From contig CAMIZH010000003.1 of NCBI GenBank assembly GCA_946403255.1, positions 1 to 46,668 on the forward strand: 46,668 nucleotides of DNA, in the 5' to 3' direction. This document shows positions 554-37,893 of the stretch, in pieces (the first letter of the stretch is position 1; every line of letters starts with the position of its first letter). A program made the position numbers and the translations under genes. The notes beneath the pieces are model-generated. The model was not told the origin of the DNA, made no database searches, and saw only the letters and a list, made by a program, of their open reading frames with translations. The stretch is from an uncultured Peptoniphilaceae bacterium (GTDB lineage Bacteria; Bacillota; Clostridia; Tissierellales; Peptoniphilaceae).

Positions 554-3055
554 ATGAAATTAAAATGTATAAAAAAAGCTGTATTATTATCAAGTTTTTT
601 AATGATTAATACAAGTGTGGTATTTGCAGAAAAGAATGAAATTTTTCAAGATATAAATACTACAATTGAATATAATGAATTGAAAAAAGAAAATATCGGT
701 GAAGAAGATAGTAATTTAAAAAATGAAAAAAGTTCATATGATGAAACATCTGAAGAAATGGGATTTAATCAATCCAGTTTAGAAAATTTAAGAATAAATA
801 AAAATGTATTTGAATATACTGATTTAAAAGATGGGGAAATAAAATTAACTAAGTATTTAAGTGATTCAAGTGAAATAGTGATACCTTCGGAAATTGATGG
901 AAAAACAGTAACTGAACTAGGAAATGATTTATTTTCAGGTTTAACAATAAATTATATAAAGTTCCCAAATACCTTAAAAATAATAGGAAGTGGAGTATTT
1001 CAAGATACTGTAGTTAACTGTGATATTAATATACCAGAAGGCGTAGAAAAAATAGGTAGATTTACAGGAGGACTTTTCAGTAAGGCGATAGTTAATGGCG
1101 ATATAATATTACCAAGTACAATAAAAAGTTATGGAGGATATGATTTTAAAGAAATAACTGTTAATGGGAAAATTAAAATCGCAGGATATTCTGGGCTAGA
1201 GGATGGACATGGACCTAAAAAAATTAATATATCCATATTTAATAATGCAAAGTACATTGAAACTATAGAGTTTACAGGAGATGCTCAGCTTATTAAAGGA
1301 AGATTTTCATTTGGAAATGAAAACTTAATAAATGTAGATGATTTTATAATAGGAGAAGGAGTCGAAAATATAGGTATATTTCCATTATTTAAATATTTTG
1401 ATATTAAAAATCCTTTAAAATTACCTTTAAGTTTAAACACTATTGATGGAAATGCTTTTGAAGATACAAAATTAAATCATCCATTATTAATTCCTAAAAA
1501 TGTAGAAAATATATATGCATTTGCATTTAATGGGGCAGAAATACCTTTGCTTGAAATTGAAAATGGAGTAAAAAATTTAGATGAAGCAAATGGGAATTTA
1601 GGAAATAATATATTTTCGAATTCTAAACTTCTAGATATAGAAATACCTTCATCAGCAGAAAATTTAGGAGATAATATGTTTGAAGGCTCAAATTTTGAAA
1701 ATATCGTTATATATAATGATCAAATAAATTTTGGTAAAAATATGTTTTCCTTAGAAAAAGATTTATATAAAAACATAAATTTGGTAGGTTTTAATAATTC
1801 TACAACTAAAAAACTTGTGGAAACCATTAAAGAAGATTTTCCTAATATAAAGTTTAAAAATTTTGTAGAAATAGAACAAAAAATAAATGGTGAATATATT
1901 GAAGAGATAACTATAGATCCAGGTGATAAGTTATTACAAAATACAGAAATTATTATAAATGAAAGCAAAGGATATAATGACTTATATAGAAGTGTAGATA
2001 GACATATAGATATTGTTATAAATGAAGAGTTGGATAAAATATTTGATATAGAGTCTATAAAAGCTGTTGTAGACAAAAAAGAGAACTTATATGTTATAAA
2101 TGAAAATGGAAATTTTTCAATAGAAATACCAAAAAATAAATTTTATGGAAATAAGCCTATTTATCTTGAGGTTCAGTTAAAAGTAAAAGATAATGCTGTT
2201 ATAAAAGAAGGAAGTAATTTAATTATTAATGCAAATATTTCAAGTGTGTTTGGAGATACAAAAGAAATCATATCTTCAAATGTTGTAAATTTAAAAGCGG
2301 GAAATAAAAATCCAACAGATCCTTCAGAACCAATAAATCCAGAGATTAATGATAAAGGTAATACCAATAAAAAAAAGAAAAAAGAAATTAAGAAAGAAGA
2401 AATAAAAAAACAGCAAATTTTAAATCATGATGAATATTTATTCGGATATGAAGATAATACAATAAAACCAGAAGGAAATATAACAAGAGAAGAAGCATCA
2501 GCAATATTAGATAGAATAACACCAGATAAAGTAACTACAAGAAGAAAATTTATATATCCAGATGTTGAAACAAATAGATGGTCTTATGAAAATATTAATA
2601 ATTTATCAAATAAAGGTGGAATAAAAGGATATCCAGATGGAAGATTTTTACCATCAAATAATATAACAAGAGCAGAAGCTGCAACAATTTTGGTAAGACT
2701 TGAAAATGCTAATTTATCCCACAAAGAAAATTTACCAAAAGAATTAGAAGGGCATTGGGCAGAAAAAGATTTAATGATATCAATAAATAAAGGATGGTTA
2801 AAAGGTTATGAAGACGGTACTTTAAAACCTGATAGAGAAATAACAAGAGCAGAATTTGTAACATTAGTAAATAGAATATTAGATAGAAAAGTAATAGAAG
2901 AAAATATATTATCAGAAATAAGAGAATTTAAAGATCTAGAAAAATCAAAATGGTATTATGAAGATATTGTTGAAGCAACAAATAGTCATAGTTATGAAGA
3001 AAAAAGATTAAAGGATAATTCGGAAAAATGGATTGATTTAATTAAATCAATGTAA
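554..3055 (+). CDS. Secreted surface protein: signal peptide, BspA/LRR_5-like repeats, Lys-rich linker, C-terminal S-layer homology (SLH) domains
   Basis: N-terminal MKLKCIKKAVLLSSFLMINTSVVFA signal; repeated IPSEIDGKTVTELGNDLFSG / FPNTLKIIGSGVF / IPEGVEKIG motifs; GYEDNTIKPEGNITREEA, GYPDGRFLPSNNITRAEA and GYEDGTLKPDREITRAEF SLH motifs. Confidence 0.9.
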   Translation: MKLKCIKKAVLLSSFLMINTSVVFAEKNEIFQDINTTIEYNELKKENIGEEDSNLKNEKSSYDETSEEMGFNQSSLENLRINKNVFEYTDLKDGEIKLTKYLSDSSEIVIPSEIDGKTVTELGNDLFSGLTINYIKFPNTLKIIGSGVFQDTVVNCDINIPEGVEKIGRFTGGLFSKAIVNGDIILPSTIKSYGGYDFKEITVNGKIKIAGYSGLEDGHGPKKINISIFNNAKYIETIEFTGDAQLIKGRFSFGNENLINVDDFIIGEGVENIGIFPLFKYFDIKNPLKLPLSLNTIDGNAFEDTKLNHPLLIPKNVENIYAFAFNGAEIPLLEIENGVKNLDEANGNLGNNIFSNSKLLDIEIPSSAENLGDNMFEGSNFENIVIYNDQINFGKNMFSLEKDLYKNINLVGFNNSTTKKLVETIKEDFPNIKFKNFVEIEQKINGEYIEEITIDPGDKLLQNTEIIINESKGYNDLYRSVDRHIDIVINEELDKIFDIESIKAVVDKKENLYVINENGNFSIEIPKNKFYGNKPIYLEVQLKVKDNAVIKEGSNLIINANISSVFGDTKEIISSNVVNLKAGNKNPTDPSEPINPEINDKGNTNKKKKKEIKKEEIKKQQILNHDEYLFGYEDNTIKPEGNITREEASAILDRITPDKVTTRRKFIYPDVETNRWSYENINNLSNKGGIKGYPDGRFLPSNNITRAEAATILVRLENANLSHKENLPKELEGHWAEKDLMISINKGWLKGYEDGTLKPDREITRAEFVTLVNRILDRKVIEENILSEIREFKDLEKSKWYYEDIVEATNSHSYEEKRLKDNSEKWIDLIKSM

Positions 3056-3064
3056 TAAAAATAA

Positions 3065-3104
3065 AGAGACTAACTTTTCTTATAAGATCGGTTAGTCTTT
3101 TTTT
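3065..3104 (+). terminator. Intrinsic terminator after the SLH protein gene
   Basis: AGACTAAC-N16-GTTAGTCT followed by a T run. Confidence 0.8.
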
Positions 3105-3351
3105 GATATATCTCTAAATTGTAAAAGATTTCTAAAATAGTCTGTTTATAGAGTTATTTTTATAATAAGATACGGGGAGATTTATGTAAAATTCTTTTAA
3201 AAGGTAGTAAATGTTAGTCATTAGATATCTTTTATCTAAATAAAAGACTTATGGTTAGGGATATAGATTTTTATGGGTATACTTTATATTATATTAATGA
3301 AATTTAATTTTATAAAGTAAATTAAACATTTAACTTTATTTGGAGGTTTGA

Positions 3352-3729
3352 ATGGACAAAAAAGTATTAGTAATATTAGTAGTTTTAATTATAGTATTGA
3401 TATTTCCTTTGTATATTATGCATTTACTTTCAAATGATATTGTTGATAAATACGAATTACTAGAAATAAAAGAATTTAAAACAGAAAATGAAATATTTAT
3501 AAAAGGTAAAATTAAAAATAATACTTTTAAAACAATACCGTACTTACAAGTAGGAATACCGATATATAATAAAAATGAATATTTAATATATACCTCTTAC
3601 GATATGATATATAATTTTAAACCTAGAAAGATATTTAATTTTAAAATAGTTATCTCTATGAATAAAAAAGATGAAATTTTATGGGAAAAAGAAGAAGTAA
3701 TTGAAGAAGTAATTATTGAAGAAAAATAA
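3352..3729 (+). CDS. Small membrane-anchored protein, possibly FxLyD/DUF-like extracytoplasmic domain
   Basis: N-terminal hydrophobic helix (KVLVILVVLIIVLIFPLYIMHLL), SD ggaggt at about 3341, then EIFIKGKIKNNTFKTIPYLQVGIPIYNKN beta-rich domain. Confidence 0.6.
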   Translation: MDKKVLVILVVLIIVLIFPLYIMHLLSNDIVDKYELLEIKEFKTENEIFIKGKIKNNTFKTIPYLQVGIPIYNKNEYLIYTSYDMIYNFKPRKIFNFKIVISMNKKDEILWEKEEVIEEVIIEEK

Positions 3730-3734
3730 AATAA

Positions 3735-3775
3735 AAAGACTAACATTCCCTTAAAGGTTTGCTAGTCTTTTTTAT
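3735..3775. terminator. Bidirectional terminator between convergent genes
   Basis: AAAGACTAAC...GCTAGTCTTTTTT between the + ORF ending at 3729 and ychF ending at 3777 on -. Confidence 0.75.
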
Positions 3776-3776
3776 T

Positions 3777-4871
3777 TTAAACATTAAATTTAAATACTAC
3801 AACGTCTCCGTCTTGCATTATATATTCTTTACCTTCACTACGAATAAGTCCTTTTTCTCTAGCGATTGCTAAAGAGCCAGTGCTTACTAAATCTTCATAA
3901 GAAATTGTATCAGCTTTTATAAATCCTCTTTCAATATCAGTATGAATTTTTCCAGCTGCTTGTGGTGCTTTTGTATTTCTTTTTATTGTCCAAGCTCTAG
4001 TTTCTACTTGACCTGTTGTAAGGAAACTTATTAATCCAAGTAAATCGTAGCTTGATTTTATAAGTTTATCTAGTCCTGATGAATCAAGTCCAAGTTCTTC
4101 TAAGAATAATTCTTTTTCATCATCTTCTAATGATTGAATTTGTGATTCAATTTCAGCGCTTATTACAACTATTTCATCACCTTGTTCTTTTGCAAAGTTT
4201 GCAACTTTTTGAACATATGGATTTTCTTTTGCGTCATTTTGAATTTCATCTTCAGAAACATTAGCTACATAAATTACTGGTTTTCCACTAAGAAGAGCAT
4301 AGTTTTTAATAAACTTGCTTTCATCTTCATTTAATTCTAAAGCTCTTGCAGGTTCACCTTTTTCAAGTAAAACTTTTAATCTTTTAAGAAGTTCTACTTC
4401 AGGTAATAATTTCTTATCACTTTTAGCTTGTTTTTCTGTTTTGAATAATCTTTTTTCAATTTGTTCTAAATCTGAAAAGATAAGTTCTAAATTTATGTTC
4501 TCTATATCTCTTAGAGGGTCTATAGAACCATCAACATGTATTATATTTTCATCTTCAAAGCATCTTACTACATGTACTATTGCATCTACTTCTCTTATAT
4601 TTGACAGGAATTGATTTCCTAATCCTTCACCCTTACTTGCGCCTTTAACAAGTCCAGCAATATCAAAAAATTCAATACTTGTATGAATGATTTTTGATGA
4701 ATTACTTATATCAGATAAAGTTTTCAATCTTTCGTCAGGAACATTTACTACACCAATATTTGGTTCAATTGTAGCAAATGGATAATTAGCAGCTTCGGCT
4801 CCAGCTTTAGTAAGAGCGTTAAATAAAGTAGACTTTCCAACATTTGGTAGTCCAACTATCCCAAGTTTCAT
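3777..4871 (-). CDS. ychF: Redox-regulated ATPase/GTPase YchF (Obg-like family)
   Basis: MKLGIVGLPNVGKSTLFNALT, DIAGLVKGASKGEGLGNQFL, C-terminal TGS-type domain (IHTDIERGFIKADTISY). Confidence 0.97.
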   Translation of the reverse strand: MKLGIVGLPNVGKSTLFNALTKAGAEAANYPFATIEPNIGVVNVPDERLKTLSDISNSSKIIHTSIEFFDIAGLVKGASKGEGLGNQFLSNIREVDAIVHVVRCFEDENIIHVDGSIDPLRDIENINLELIFSDLEQIEKRLFKTEKQAKSDKKLLPEVELLKRLKVLLEKGEPARALELNEDESKFIKNYALLSGKPVIYVANVSEDEIQNDAKENPYVQKVANFAKEQGDEIVVISAEIESQIQSLEDDEKELFLEELGLDSSGLDKLIKSSYDLLGLISFLTTGQVETRAWTIKRNTKAPQAAGKIHTDIERGFIKADTISYEDLVSTGSLAIAREKGLIRSEGKEYIMQDGDVVVFKFNV

Positions 4872-4953
4872 TTTATCGCCTCATTTTCTATTTTTTCAAA
4901 TTGTATTATAACATAAAAAAAATCTTAACCCAATCTTTTATAGTTATATAATA

Positions 4954-4982
4954 TTGGTTTTATATACACCTTAGTGTATAAT
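4954..4982 (+). promoter_or_regulatory. Sigma-A-type promoter (TTGGTT, 17 bp, TATAAT) overlapped by a perfect 7-bp inverted repeat
   Basis: TTGGTT 4954-4959; TATAAT 4977-4982; TATACAC-CTTA-GTGTATA at 4963-4980. Confidence 0.6.
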
Positions 4983-5015
4983 AGGAAAAAGATAATATAA
5001 AGAGGTGAATATAAA

Positions 5016-5909
5016 ATGAGTGCCATAGTGGTAAATGAATTAACCAAGAGATTAGGTAAAAAAGTTATATTTTCTGATATAAACTTAGAAGTGCTTGAAG
5101 GTGAATTTTATGCTGTACTAGGACTAGAAGGACAAGGAAAAACTACTTTAGCAAAAATCATATTTAATTATTTAAATCCAACAACTGGATCTATTAATAT
5201 TTTTGATATGGATTGTACTAAGGATTCTAGACTTATAAAAGAAAGTGTTTCTTATGTTCCTGAAGAATTTATTTTCCAGGATAATGTTAGAGCAATATCT
5301 TTATTTAAGAAAACTCTTGCTTTTCATAATTTGAAAAATACAGAAGAATTAAACTATTTAGTTGAATATTTTGGATTTAATCAAAAGGTTAGAGTCATAG
5401 ATATGACTGAAAATGAAAAAAAATTATTTAGTATTATAAATGCATTAATAGTTAAACCTAGGTTGTTAATACTAGATGAACCAACAAAGTACTTAAGTAT
5501 TGAAGATACTGTTAAATTATTTGATCATTTGAATAAATTAAAATCAGAAGAAAATTTAACTATGTTTATGTTAACTGATTCTTTAGTAGATGCTCAAAGA
5601 TATTGTGATAGAGGAGCATTTTTACATGATGGACAAATAAAAAATACAGAATATCTAAAAGATAAAGCTGCTAATGATAAAATTATTAAAATTTATTCAG
5701 AATTAGATAGCTTAGATAGATTTACAGATATTGGTGCTAGAGTTATAAAAGAAAGCGTTGAAGAAAAAATATTATACTTCGATGGTAATTTAAATCTTTT
5801 ATCTCAAGTTATAGCAAGTTTAAATATAGTTAATTATAATATAGAGGATTCATCATTAAGTGATAAAATATCAGCTTATTATAAAAATGTAGAGGAGGTA
5901 GAAGGATGA
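5016..5909 (+). CDS. ABC transporter ATP-binding protein
   Basis: Walker A GLEGQGKTTL, Walker B LLILDEPTKYL; signature region degenerate (DMTENEKKL). Confidence 0.9.
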   Translation: MSAIVVNELTKRLGKKVIFSDINLEVLEGEFYAVLGLEGQGKTTLAKIIFNYLNPTTGSINIFDMDCTKDSRLIKESVSYVPEEFIFQDNVRAISLFKKTLAFHNLKNTEELNYLVEYFGFNQKVRVIDMTENEKKLFSIINALIVKPRLLILDEPTKYLSIEDTVKLFDHLNKLKSEENLTMFMLTDSLVDAQRYCDRGAFLHDGQIKNTEYLKDKAANDKIIKIYSELDSLDRFTDIGARVIKESVEEKILYFDGNLNLLSQVIASLNIVNYNIEDSSLSDKISAYYKNVEEVEG

Positions 5910-6727
5910 TTTTTGAAAGAGAATTTAAGTCTACCTTTGGAAAAATGATTGCGTGGGTATTAGTTTTATTAGTTTTAACAGGATTATTACTTGCTCTTTA
6001 TCCTATGATGTTAGATTTAAATATGAAAAGTGTTTTTGATAGTTTTATTTCTAGCTTAAATGATAATTTTAAAAAGGTAATGGGCTTTGATGAAAAGCTT
6101 AACTATGAAGAAATAGGACAATATATTGCTTTTATTTATCAATATATTGCAGTTTTAATTGCAATGTTTGCTATGCAACTTGGAGCGAATTCTTTAGCTA
6201 AAGAACAAGGTTCTGGAAATATAGAATATTTATATTCTAATCCTATAGACAGATCTGAAATTGTAACTCAAAAGATTTTATCAAATATTTTAACTTATGT
6301 ACTATTTTTAATAGTTATGGCAGTTGCAACTTTTGGTCTTGCAATAGTTTTAGCACCGAAAGATGCAGATTTTAGAAAACAACAATTATTAATAGATATG
6401 ATAAAAATATTTGCAGGACTACTTGGAAGTGGACTTGTATTTATGTCAATTGGTTATTTTGTAAGTTCATTATCTAAAAATACAATCTATACAGAAGGAA
6501 TAAGTGTATTATTTGTATTTTTAATTGCAATTTTTATAATTGTTGGAAAGATAAATGGGGGAGTTCTAGGAACTATTACAAATTTATCTCCACTTGAAAC
6601 TTTTAAACCAATAAGAATGTTAAATTTAAATATTTCTGTAATTGGAGTTATTACAAATATAGTTATTTTTGCTATATTTATGTTACTAACATATTTTATT
6701 TACAACAAAAAAGAATTGAAATACTAA
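5906..6727 (+). CDS. ABC-2 type transporter permease
   Basis: Six hydrophobic segments, ANSLAKEQGSGNIEYLYSNPIDRSEIVTQKI motif typical of ABC-2 permeases; ATGA overlap with the upstream ATPase. Confidence 0.88.
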   Translation: MIFEREFKSTFGKMIAWVLVLLVLTGLLLALYPMMLDLNMKSVFDSFISSLNDNFKKVMGFDEKLNYEEIGQYIAFIYQYIAVLIAMFAMQLGANSLAKEQGSGNIEYLYSNPIDRSEIVTQKILSNILTYVLFLIVMAVATFGLAIVLAPKDADFRKQQLLIDMIKIFAGLLGSGLVFMSIGYFVSSLSKNTIYTEGISVLFVFLIAIFIIVGKINGGVLGTITNLSPLETFKPIRMLNLNISVIGVITNIVIFAIFMLLTYFIYNKKELKY

Positions 6728-33512: not shown

Positions 33513-34547
33513 ATGGAAAACGAAAATAAGAAAAAAGCACTTGATTTAGCTATTGCACAAATTGAAAAGCAATATGGCAAGGGATCTATTATGAAACTTG
33601 GTGAAAATGCTACATTAGATATTGCAAATACTATTCCTACTGGCTCTTTAGCACTAGACTTGGCTCTTGGAGTAGGTGGAGTTCCTAGAGGAAGAATCAT
33701 AGAAGTTTATGGTCCTGAATCATCAGGTAAAACAACACTTGCACTTCATATTTTAGCTGAAGCTCAAAAGAAAGATGGAATAGCTGCTTTTATAGATGCA
33801 GAACATGCTTTAGATCCAGGTTATGCAAGACATTTAGGTGTTGATACTGAAAACTTAATAATTTCTCAACCAGATACTGGGGAACAAGCTCTAGAAATAA
33901 CAGAGGCTTTAGTTAGAAGTAATGCTGTAGATATTATTGTTGTAGACTCTGTAGCTGCTTTAGTTCCAAAAGTTGAAATTGAAGGAGAAATGGGAGCAAG
34001 TCACATTGGATTACAAGCAAGGCTTATGTCTCAAGCTCTAAGAAAATTAACTGGTGCTATAAATAAATCTAACACTTCTGTTATATTTATAAATCAATTA
34101 AGAGAAAAAGTAGGAGTTATGTTTGGTAGTCCAGAAACAACAACTGGAGGAAGAGCTTTAAAATTCTACGCAACTATTAGAATGGATATTCGTAAAATTG
34201 AAAATCTAAAACAAGGTGATGAAATAGTTGGAAGTAGAGCTAGAGTTAAAGTTGTAAAAAATAAAGTAGCACCTCCTTTCAAACAAGCTGAGTTTGATAT
34301 AATGTATGGTAAAGGAATCTCTAGAGAAGGTAATATTCTAGATGTAGGAGTTCAAGCTGATATTGTCAACAAAGCTGGAGCTTGGTATTCTTACAATGAC
34401 AGTAAATTAGGACAAGGTAGAGAAAATTCTAAAATATTCTTAATGGAAAATACTGACATAAGAGATGAGATAGAACAAAAAATAAGAGCAGTTTATAATT
34501 TATCTGATGATGTAGAAATATCTGAAGAAGAAAAAACTGAAGAATAG
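33513..34547 (+). CDS. recA: Recombinase RecA
   Basis: [39 protein letters not shown]. Confidence 0.99.
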
Positions 34548-34560
34548 GATCTGTGATTTA

Positions 34561-35541
34561 ATGAAACTATTATATTTTACAGATACTCATATTAGAGGAA
34601 ATAATCCTAAAAATAGAAAAGATGAGTTTAGTGAGACTCTTAAAAATAAATTATTAGAGATTGTTGATATTAGTAAAAAAGAAAATATAGATTTTATACT
34701 TCATGGGGGCGATCTATTTGATCGTCCCGATGTTTCTATTGGGATAGTTAGTGAATTTGCTAGTATCTTTAATAAATTTAAAAGTCCAATTTATATCGTA
34801 AGTGGAAATCATGATATATTTGGACATAATCAAAAAACTCTAAATAGAACTATGTTAGGATTATTATCAAATCTTGGAGTATTTAAACTTGTTGAAGATA
34901 AGCCTATTATTTTAGAAAAAAATAATATAAAACTCCAATTAACTGGAAATCCTTATACTTTTAGTATGGAAGAAGACTTTAATAAGGATAATTACAAAGT
35001 TTTAGAAAAAAATAAAGATGTAGACTATTCAATTCATATGGTACATGGTTTTTTATTAGATAAACCATTTCTTAAAGAAGTTCCTCATACATTAGTTTCT
35101 GAAATCTATGATACTAATGCAGATATAACTTTATCTGGACATTATCATTTAGGTTTTAAAACTATTGAACATGAAGGTAAATATTTTATTAATCCTGGTT
35201 CAATGGTTAGAATTTCAAATAGTTTATCTGAAATGCAAAGAAAACCAAAAGTTATAATTATAGAATTAGATTCTGAAATAAACATTAAGGAAGTTTATTT
35301 AAATTCAGCTCTACCAGGAGAAGATGTTTTAGATAGACAAGAGATGGAAAGACATAAATTTAAAAGAAGTAAAATTTATGAATTCAAAGAGATAATTGAT
35401 TCTACAACAGATTTATCTAGTCTAGATGTATTTGATTTATTAATTCAAATTTCAAAAAATGATTCTATTCCTGAAGATGTAAGAGATGAAGCAGTTAGAA
35501 GAATTCAAGAGGTGCAAATAAAAGGAGCTGATTATTCTTGA
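34561..35541 (+). CDS. Mre11/SbcD-like calcineurin-type metallophosphoesterase
   Basis: FTDTHIRG, LHGGDLFDRPD, VSGNHDIFG, MVHGFLL, LSGHYHLG phosphoesterase motifs; directly downstream of recA. Confidence 0.88.
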   Translation: MKLLYFTDTHIRGNNPKNRKDEFSETLKNKLLEIVDISKKENIDFILHGGDLFDRPDVSIGIVSEFASIFNKFKSPIYIVSGNHDIFGHNQKTLNRTMLGLLSNLGVFKLVEDKPIILEKNNIKLQLTGNPYTFSMEEDFNKDNYKVLEKNKDVDYSIHMVHGFLLDKPFLKEVPHTLVSEIYDTNADITLSGHYHLGFKTIEHEGKYFINPGSMVRISNSLSEMQRKPKVIIIELDSEINIKEVYLNSALPGEDVLDRQEMERHKFKRSKIYEFKEIIDSTTDLSSLDVFDLLIQISKNDSIPEDVRDEAVRRIQEVQIKGADYS

Positions 35542-36983
35542 TATTTATTACTAAAATAGAATTGAAGAATTTTCAATCTCATAAAGATACTACAATTGAA
35601 TTTCATAGAGGTTTAAATGTTATTTTAGGTCATTCTGATAGTGGTAAAACTGCTATTTTAAGAGCTATAAAATGGGCTCTTTACAATGAACCTTTAGGTG
35701 ATTATTTTATTAAACAAGGTGAAAAAGATGTATCTGTATCAATTGAATTTAATACTGGAGCTATTGTTAAGAGATATAGATCTGCATCTAAAAATACTTA
35801 TTATTTAAAAAGAGCTGATGGTGAAGAATATACCTTTGATGGATTTGGGCAAAAAGTACCTCAAGAAATTTCTGAAGAAATAAAAATGTATAAAATAAAT
35901 TTAGATGAAAAATCTTCATCAATTATAAATATATCAGAACAACTTGATGGCCCTTTCTTATTAAATGAAAAACCATCTCTTCGAGCAAGTGGTATTGGAA
36001 GACTTGTAGGGGTAAATCTTATTGATGATGCTTTAAGAGAAACTATAAGAGATAAAAAACAAATAACTTCATCATTAAAATCTTTAGAAGATGAAAAAAA
36101 GGAACTTAAAATTAAACTTGAAGAATTTTCAAATTTGGAAAAAGAAGAGCTTGTTTTAAATGAATTAATAGATATTAGAACAAGTTTACAAATTAAAAAA
36201 GAAAAACTAGATTATATGAAAAAAATAGATTTTAAATTAAAAAATAATTTAGTGGAAATAGCAAATGAAAAAAATATTTTAGACAAATATAAGGATATAG
36301 ATTTATTAGAAGAATATCTGAATAATTTAAAATCATTGATTATACAAGAAAAATCAATCTCTTTGAAAAACCAATTATTTAAAAATTATAATAAAGAAAT
36401 AACTGAAAAAAATATATTAAAAAATAAATTAAGCACTATAGATGATTTATCAAAATATATTCTAAAATTAGAAGATAGCACTTATAAATTAAATAGATTA
36501 AGTTTAATTAAAACTAAATTTAATGAAATCTTTAAAAATTTAGAAAAAACATCTCAAAGTTTAAAGATATATGAATCTTTAAATAATGTTGAAATACTAA
36601 GTTCTAATTTAGAAAAAACAATTAAAAGATATAATTATATTTATAGTTTAAATACAAATTATAATAAGACTAGCAATAATATAAATATTGGCAATAGATA
36701 TTTAAAAAACTTTGAAACTCTAGAGCTAACAGAGTCTATTGTTCAAGAACTTAATTTAAAAGTTTTTAACTACAATAAACTTAGAGATTATTCAAAAATA
36801 TTAATAGAACTAAATAATAATAAGATGAAAATAGAAGAAAGTATATCTATATTTAATAAAGATATAAATTTAAATCTTGAAAATTATAATAATTTACTTT
36901 CATCTCTAGGCTATTGCCCTATGTGTATGACTAAAGTTGATAAAAATACAATGGATCATATTGAAAAACATTTTAAGGAGTGA
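35538..36983 (+). CDS. SbcC/Rad50-like ATPase, N-terminal half (Walker A plus coiled coil) ending in a C2H2-like zinc motif
   Basis: IELKNFQSHKDTTIEFHRGLNVILGHSDSGKTAILRAIKWALYNE; long coiled coil; C-terminal CPMCMTKVDKNTMDHIEKHF; TTG start overlapping the upstream stop (TTGA). Confidence 0.85.
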   Translation: MIFITKIELKNFQSHKDTTIEFHRGLNVILGHSDSGKTAILRAIKWALYNEPLGDYFIKQGEKDVSVSIEFNTGAIVKRYRSASKNTYYLKRADGEEYTFDGFGQKVPQEISEEIKMYKINLDEKSSSIINISEQLDGPFLLNEKPSLRASGIGRLVGVNLIDDALRETIRDKKQITSSLKSLEDEKKELKIKLEEFSNLEKEELVLNELIDIRTSLQIKKEKLDYMKKIDFKLKNNLVEIANEKNILDKYKDIDLLEEYLNNLKSLIIQEKSISLKNQLFKNYNKEITEKNILKNKLSTIDDLSKYILKLEDSTYKLNRLSLIKTKFNEIFKNLEKTSQSLKIYESLNNVEILSSNLEKTIKRYNYIYSLNTNYNKTSNNINIGNRYLKNFETLELTESIVQELNLKVFNYNKLRDYSKILIELNNNKMKIEESISIFNKDINLNLENYNNLLSSLGYCPMCMTKVDKNTMDHIEKHFKE

Positions 36984-36988
36984 TTTAG

Positions 36989-37222
36989 TTGAATAATGAA
37001 GAACAATTAAATAAATTAAAACAAGATTTAGAAAAATATAAAAATTTAAAATATAAAGCAGAAGCTAGATTAGAACAACTAAATGTTCAAAGAGATAATA
37101 TTATAGAAGAAATAAAGGCGGAAGGTATTAATCCTAAAAATTTAGAAGATGAAATTTTAAAATTAGAAGATGAAATATCAAGCTTGTTTAAAAGAGCAGA
37201 AGAACTATTACCGAGGGAATAA
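36989..37222 (+). CDS. Small (77 aa) coiled-coil protein between split ATPase halves
   Basis: SD aaggag at 36975-36980, TTG start, heptad-like EEQLNKLKQDLEKYKNLKYKAEARLEQLN. Confidence 0.65.
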   Translation: MNNEEQLNKLKQDLEKYKNLKYKAEARLEQLNVQRDNIIEEIKAEGINPKNLEDEILKLEDEISSLFKRAEELLPRE

Positions 37223-37223
37223 T

Positions 37224-37871
37224 ATGGATTATGAAGTTTTATCTAAAGATATAGATACCTTTAAAAGTAAAATTGATATTTCAAAAGGTAAAAAAGAAAT
37301 TCTAGATAGCCACTTAGACGTAGTAGAAGAAAAAATATCTTCTCTTTCTGAAATGGAACAAAGACTGGAAAAAGTTATTATTTTATTTCAAAAGACTTCT
37401 GAATTTGGTAGAAATCAAGCGAAAAGTCAAATTGAAGATTTAGTTACTAAATGTTTGCAATTTATTTTTGAATCAGATATTGAGTTTAATATTGAAATTG
37501 TAGAAAGTAGAAATATCCCACAGGCAGAATTTTATGTTATATCTAATTACAGTGAGGGATATAGTGTAAAGACAAAACCAGAACTCTCAAGAGGTGGTGG
37601 AGTTGTAGATATAGTATCTATTGCTTTAAGACTTGCTTTTATTCAAATCCATAAACCTTATATTGAAGGTCCTATTTTATTTGATGAGCCAGGTAAGCAT
37701 GTTAGTGATGACTATATTTTTAATGTAGGTGAGTTTTTAAAGCAATCCTCAAAAATGTTTAAACGACAAATAATAATGGTAACTCATAATAAATATTTGT
37801 CTGAAATATGTGATAAATCCTTTACTATCAACATTAAGGATGGAAATAGTTTTTTAGAAAAATCAGAATAA
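37224..37871 (+). CDS. SbcC/Rad50-like ATPase, C-terminal half (signature plus Walker B)
   Basis: PELSRGGGVVDIVSIALRLAF signature, GPILFDEPGKHVSDD Walker B, IIMVTHNKYLSEIC H-loop; ATG at 37224. Confidence 0.83.
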   Translation: MDYEVLSKDIDTFKSKIDISKGKKEILDSHLDVVEEKISSLSEMEQRLEKVIILFQKTSEFGRNQAKSQIEDLVTKCLQFIFESDIEFNIEIVESRNIPQAEFYVISNYSEGYSVKTKPELSRGGGVVDIVSIALRLAFIQIHKPYIEGPILFDEPGKHVSDDYIFNVGEFLKQSSKMFKRQIIMVTHNKYLSEICDKSFTINIKDGNSFLEKSE

Positions 37872-37893
37872 TTTATATTATTCTGATTTTTTA
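37861..37893 (+). terminator. Intrinsic terminator at the end of the split-ATPase module
   Basis: AATCAGAATAATTTATATTATTCTGATTTTTT, overlapping the stop codon. Confidence 0.8.

Follow-up and report, generated by a model that had tools for sequence, protein, structure and literature searches.

Rad50, SbcC and the related SMC proteins are regarded as single chains, with a continuous coil connecting their two ATPase lobes, and Mre11-Rad50 and SbcCD are established as ATP-dependent nucleases that act on DNA ends and hairpins. A locus directly behind recA in an uncultured Peptoniphilaceae bacterium (assembly GCA_946403255.1, contig CAMIZH010000003.1; the window analyzed is its first 46,668 nucleotides) raises the question of whether such a machine can also be encoded in pieces. 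Four successive open reading frames, here P1 to P4, encode a Mre11-type phosphoesterase, an N-terminal half of Rad50, a 77-aa piece and a C-terminal half of Rad50. The original prediction had described these frames with their coordinates, strand, starts, overlaps and motifs, all of which we re-found in the sequence. The module is very probably a working split Mre11-Rad50 that would process DNA ends and feed RecA, with its assembly from these parts well supported by sequence and its activity predicted from them. The three-piece split is found in many Bacillota and in phages, is stable and ancient, and appears undescribed as such. The original prediction had allowed that this family might already be documented as the ordinary SbcCD of its lineage, but no description of it as such or of a split Rad50 was found in the literature searched, which included few subscription journals and leaves an earlier mention possible.

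P1 has the features of a Mre11-type nuclease. It matches Metallophos in Pfam (E = 1.8e-15) and the SbcD-like family phrog_100 in PHROGs (E = 5.8e-18), and Mre11 proteins are the best matches of its profile among solved structures (E = 1.4e-10). All five phosphoesterase motifs are present (D8/H10, D51, N83-H84-D85, H162, and H194/H196), and across a 41-sequence alignment D8, H10, D51, H84, D85, H162, H194, and H196 are invariant and N83 nearly so.

The ATPase is divided between P2 and P4. Walker A occurs only in P2 and the signature, Walker B and H-loop only in P4, and the same solved Rad50 of Methanocaldococcus jannaschii (3aux) is matched over its N part by the P2 family profile (E = 5e-15) and over its C part by the P4 profile (E = 2.2e-12). 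P2 also matches AAA_23 (E = 1.6e-14) and phrog_16465 (E = 4e-58), and Rad50 (3auy) is the best Foldseek match of its AlphaFold2 model, which is of moderate confidence (mean predicted local distance difference test, pLDDT, 82.7; predicted template modeling score 0.32). P4 matches phrog_15167 (E = 3e-63) and, under the Pfam cut-off, SMC_N (E = 3.5e-5). P4 comprises a long helix and a C-lobe with signature, Walker B, D-loop and H-loop, and its confident AlphaFold2 model (pLDDT 93.2) resembles SMC and Rad50 C-lobes in Foldseek (E ~2e-8). The motifs confirmed in the module are Walker A, LSRGGG, ILFDEPGKHVSD, and VTHN.

The end of P2 has a feature absent from the original prediction, a zinc-hook motif. 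Profile columns 413-479 match zinc hooks from solved Rad50 structures (6zff, E = 8.9e-6; 1l8d, E = 1.4e-5), and the CxxC at the tip of the P2 arm is a putative zinc-binding hook. Only 6-24 residues separate the CPxC motif from the C-terminus. Judged from this motif, Rad50 is cut at its zinc-hook tip, since P2 stops just past it.

P3 is predicted to be a helix-turn-helix-shaped coil protein and the third piece of Rad50. Its family (44 sequences, mean identity 46%) has a conserved turn, LGxxPExLExEI, and P3 matches phrog_18563 (E = 1.5e-7). It is present, at 77-88 aa, in 40 of 40 relatives fetched. Its earlier description as a coiled coil was incomplete, as P3 is a conserved protein family in its own right. 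Neither P3 nor P4 scores above the cut-off of any curated family in Pfam or NCBIfam. The idea that P3 is a P2 repeat that has degenerated was rejected because profile comparison gave no match. Chance is excluded as a source of the pieces because P2, P3, and P4 each match a protein family of their own and P3 is seen again in every one of the 40 relatives. Coordinates are collected in table 1.

Table 1. Features of the split Mre11-Rad50 module and its surroundings (positions in the window).
Feature	Positions	Strand	Basis or remark
recA	33513..34547	+	Upstream neighbor, 13-base gap to P1; recA-P1-P2-P3-P4 order in relatives
P1, Mre11/SbcD-like phosphoesterase, 326 aa	34561..35541	+	Metallophos, phrog_100 and Mre11 profile matches
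P2, Rad50 N-half, 481 aa (N-lobe, arm, C-terminal zinc-hook motif)	35538..36983	+	AAA_23, phrog_16465
P3, putative third Rad50 piece, 77 aa	36989..37222	+	Family alignment, phrog_18563
P4, Rad50 C-half, 215 aa from ATG 37224	37224..37871	+	phrog_15167, M. jannaschii Rad50 C-lobe
Walker A GHSDSGKT of P2	35628..35651	+	G31, G36, K37 invariant
Arm of P2, residues ~159-457	36012..36908	+	Autocorrelation, length steps, helix breaks in model
CPMC zinc-hook motif, 18 codons upstream of P2 end	36915..36926	+	C460/C463 invariant in P2 alignment A5
Signature LSRGGG of P4	37584..37601	+	G124, G125, G126 invariant (alignment A6)
Walker B ILFDEP of P4	37674..37691	+	D154, E155 invariant (A6)
H-loop VTHN of P4	37779..37790	+	H188 invariant (A6)
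TTGA stop/start overlap of P1 and P2, 4 bases	35538..35541	+	Similar overlap or near-contact at this junction in relatives
Terminator-like hairpin, 16 bp	37857..37892	+	Fold z -7.1

The split is conserved across relatives. When the window's own genome was searched with P4 together with 80 relatives, strong matches came from 44 of the 81 genomes, in frames of normal length save one decayed copy and one cut by a contig end. All 40 relatives' loci fetched have the order P2-P3-P4; P1 and recA precede it on every contig that extends far enough, and rny follows immediately in most. Among named genomes, 398 relatives were identified, and the best 80 of these are Peptoniphilus, Anaerosphaera, Aedoeadaptatus, Tissierella, Soehngenia, Anaerosalibacter, Thermohalobacter, Thermosediminibacteraceae and kin; among these 80, the split is seen wherever the annotation is readable. 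P4 is found in 28 of 391 genomes at class level, and its search matches 69 of 399 at phylum level, including three fused chains of family f146 (below) and a few weak matches in frames of 558-572 aa that are probably other SMC-like proteins. The arrangement recA-P1-P2-P3-P4-rny also occurs in other families of the phylum (L312-L315 and L317). In the survey of recA-rny neighborhoods proposed with the original prediction, the split is kept and no relative examined has an intact fused SbcC at this locus. In one locus (L048, 7540-8200; genome G016), P4 contains in-frame stops with P1 to P3 intact, reflecting recent decay or a sequence error.

In clostridial family f70, the two halves of the ATPase are far apart. 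P4 is separated from P1-P2-P3 in seven of seven genomes from three genera (L258-L264 and L283-L289), lying alone just upstream of rny, and in both loci read in detail it follows a folD-like gene. P1-P2-P3 sit beside rimO and pgsA, either at a distance of 0.17 to 1.1 Mb or on a separate contig, and every piece is intact. The family forms a single clade on the P4 tree (support 100/98). This separation shows that P2 and P4 are independent genes.

The split also occurs in phages and plasmids, and phages account for much of its diversity. Scanning viral contigs yielded 189 relatives, and among the best 80, which were annotated, there is no fusion of P2 to P4. Viral P2 proteins end 6-24 residues past a CxxC that is nearly always CPxC, except in the broken L177 and the P1-P2-P3 fusion of L207. 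In diverged viral contigs, where the P3 profile mostly fails, the stretch shortly before P4 holds a coil-type frame of 79-97 aa in each of the 12 inspected. The module pieces of Bacillus phage vB_BboS-125 are gp32, gp34, and gp35, and a gene with an AP2 domain is inserted between P2 and P3 (L039, 5152-5724); spacing suggests similar inserts in other phage contigs. Further named carriers are Bacillus velezensis p3, Alkaliphilus pB6464, and Microcystis phage Mvi-JY20. A phage origin of the module, as first proposed, is possible; the trees are unrooted and give no direction of transfer. Many of the phage blocks on viral contigs L215, L216, L221, L225-L238, and L241 have a RecA-like gene followed by a short-arm P2, P1, and P4, preserving the link to RecA in a different order.

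From family membership, motifs and neighborhood, we infer that the complex assembles, binds zinc, acts as a nuclease and cooperates with RecA. P2 would provide the N-lobe with Walker A, the outgoing arm and the terminal zinc hook; P4 would provide the C-lobe, with signature, Walker B and H-loop, and the head-proximal coil; and P3 would form the stretch between hook and P4. Joining of P4 to P2 would complete one ATPase head, and two heads would close with ATP between them and bind a dimer of P1. Cycling of ATP would allow DNA ends, hairpins or protein-blocked ends to be opened or trimmed, making them usable by RecA or for recombination-dependent replication, and a pair of P2 hooks, with one zinc ion bound between them, would hold both arms together.

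The module is closest to archaeal-type Mre11-Rad50 (M. jannaschii, 3aux and 3av0; Pyrococcus furiosus), to which it has its best profile and fold matches and with which it shares both lobes, the hook motif and a Mre11-type phosphoesterase. It differs in that its Rad50 is three polypeptides, the N-half stops at the hook, the arm is built of repeats and the signature has SRGGG rather than LSGGE. As it lacks a single polypeptide with both lobes and a long antiparallel coil, we class it as a split variant of Mre11-Rad50. To the SbcCD of Escherichia coli and Bacillus subtilis it is alike in its presumed role as an ATP-dependent nuclease of ends and hairpins and in having a sbcD-like gene before the ATPase gene, but P1 scores 37.0 bits against a cut-off of 77.65 for the SbcD model TIGR00619, and the SbcC_Walker_B model PF13558 has no match in the window's own genome. 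Canonical SbcC, identified by PF13558, is nearly exclusive with the module, being found in 3 of 44 genomes with it versus 26 of 37 without it (Fisher p 1.5e-9, which is optimistic as the genomes are related; one 1404-aa frame judged a probable other SMC-like protein is omitted). At class level, the counts are 1 of 28 versus 179 of 363, omitting a 1397-aa frame on the same judgment. The failure of both models and the near-exclusion led us to reject the ordinary SbcCD of the lineage as an identity for the module. The halves had been called SbcC-like, a loose term, as archaeal-type Rad50 profiles come nearer to them than SbcC.

Some observations weigh against the reading of the module as a working split Mre11-Rad50. 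The serine of the ATPase signature is not fixed (S122 is below 90% in alignment A6, and f70 sequences have alanine). The P2 arm is far longer than P3 and the coil of P4 together and varies independently of both. The window's own genome is 76% complete, so the absence of canonical SbcCD there is by itself weak. A search for a second, full-length sbcCD, suggested by the original prediction, found no canonical SbcC in that genome but two unsplit Mre11/Rad50-like pairs that could share the work (C14, 349 and 668 aa, L004 435-3480; C36, 380 and 802 aa, L007 169-3721); one of the two one-piece ATPases resembles the YhaN-type AAA_27. Given the near-exclusion with SbcC and yet the presence of two other pairs, the module seems to take the place of SbcCD and not that of every Rad50-like pair.

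The length of the arm bears on how the pieces fit together. The sequence of the P2 arm correlates with itself at lags of 47 and 94, and in the model its helices are interrupted about every 47 residues. Measured from D163 to CPxC, the arm ranges from 145 to 348 residues in relatives, with clusters at ~145, 196, 250, 297, and 345, and its length tracks neither that of P3 (Spearman -0.06) nor that of P4 (0.04; n = 111 loci). P3 and the coil of P4 together span about half of a 297-residue arm. The assembly is therefore not simply a classical coil cut into pieces, because the arm is longer than these two and varies without them. A classical antiparallel coil needs matching strands, and therefore part of the arm is probably paired with itself, doubled back or bound by two or more copies of P3, and an ordinary antiparallel coil formed within one molecule is improbable for the P2 arm. 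The same complex could still be built classically, with P3 and P4 returning along the entire P2 arm. Phage contig L207 has what a returning strand predicts: a 771-aa fusion of P1 and P2 carries a P3-like sequence directly after the hook and leaves no space for a separate P3, which puts P3 after the hook, though this tail does not match the P3 profile and the argument is positional. Given the mismatch in length and the independent ~47-residue steps, however, we consider a full-length return improbable. Our tentative proposal, which we hold to be less likely than not, is that this Rad50 is a modular arm machine assembled non-covalently, with a hook-bearing P2 arm made of ~47-residue units. P2 might pair with another P2 or with several P3 rather than with a returning strand of its own, the arm might evolve by whole units, and a ring open at the hook could open or exchange parts, unlike that of classical Rad50.

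Gene neighborhoods speak to function. Because of its family, Mre11-Rad50/SbcCD, and the vicinity of recA in chromosomes and phages, the module most likely serves to prepare DNA ends for RecA. An anti-phage defense module of the Lamassu, Gabija or ABC-ATPase type could also be carried by phages and plasmids, as relatives of the module are, and P2 and P4 weakly match the GajA, LmuB, and mad3 models. However, no PADLOC model was matched over its full length, and of the weak matches, to GajA, LmuB, PtuA, and mad3, the best fall only in the P-loop region. Furthermore, the chromosomal locus is a fixed housekeeping site between recA and rny across families rather than a variable island, and in phages the module lies in replication and recombination blocks near helicase, resolvase and RecA genes, the last in many viral contigs. 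A defense function is thus quite improbable, and we rejected it on the weakness of these P-loop-type matches.

Natural fusions support the view that P1 to P4 are parts of one machine. Fusions of Mre11 to the N-half of Rad50 (P1-P2) of 707-799 aa occur on viral contigs L165, L183, L214, L228, and L229, and Geobacillus and Brevibacillus plasmids carry two more, of 802 and 851 aa; all of them have a separate P4 downstream, and several also have a detected P3. In family f146 (L309 7652-9754, L310 7583-9670, and L311 6264-8318), a single chain of 684-700 aa contains P1, N-lobe and C-lobe, lacks both arm and CxxC and constitutes a minimal Mre11-Rad50; on the tree, it falls among split sequences at an exact position that is weakly supported. 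These chains argue against the view that P2 and P4 build no common head and that P4 is instead an ATPase-like regulator acting independently and P2 a coil protein of its own. The lone P4 near rny in f70 would fit that view, but each of those genomes has P2 elsewhere and neither half has a complete ATP site, and we give it very little credence. The earlier claim that these are real separate genes is borne out by the conserved split and synteny, by the distant halves in f70 and by the fusions. That a one-piece SbcC or Rad50 gene was broken by sequencing error, frameshift or decay, as the joint span of the three pieces over one Rad50 and the fragmented draft assembly (114 contigs) might suggest, has next to no chance of being correct and was rejected, given identical boundaries in dozens of genomes and phage contigs, trans location in f70, the conservation of P3 and the additional gene between pieces in one phage.

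Known phage and viral systems offer partial parallels. In phage T4, gp46 and gp47 are Rad50 and Mre11 and act with a RecA-like protein in recombination-dependent replication. The phage relatives of the module resemble them in being phage-encoded and in lying near RecA; the module differs in that gp46 is one unsplit polypeptide. PHROGs holds phage P2, P3, and P4 as phrog_16465, phrog_18563, and phrog_15167, listed unconnected as exonuclease, unknown and ATPase. The 218,948 bp contig L165 (region 2675-6711), probably Bacillus phage 0305phi8-36, which has the same length, has P3 and separate P4 genes downstream of its P1-P2 fusion; its DNA matched no named phage record in the collection. Fusion proteins of Mre11 and Rad50 from Mimivirus and others have been described, and one P-loop NTPase segment was not observed in those of Bacillus phage 0305phi8-36 and Anaerostipes (Yoshida et al. 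2011; PMC3175470). Such proteins join Mre11 to the N part of Rad50, as do those of our viral contigs and two plasmids, but the available portion of that paper treats them as fusions and includes no split Rad50, P3 or separate C-half. The P4 of L165 is probably the half noted as missing there.

The four genes are tightly packed. The overlap of P1 and P2 may couple their translation; aaggag, resembling a Shine-Dalgarno sequence, precedes the P3 start, and the P4 ATG immediately follows the TAA at 37222. The module had been said to end at its own terminator. The hairpin at its end has a perfect, A+T-rich stem and is a plausible terminator, but the U run that follows is short and a consensus terminator scan based on stem GC did not flag it. 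Within the window, a scan for LexA-type SOS boxes found nothing above chance level, and searches for Rfam families and tRNAs found none.

If this reading is correct, annotation can be corrected for pieces that Pfam and NCBIfam leave without a passing model and PHROGs lists as unrelated, and the half reported in 2011 as missing from the Bacillus phage fusion is probably supplied. Comparing forms that are naturally split, differ in arm length or lack the arm would make the roles of coil, hook and ring testable. The lobes of Rad50 could do without their covalent link, and the zinc-hook end would be the natural point at which to cut the protein.

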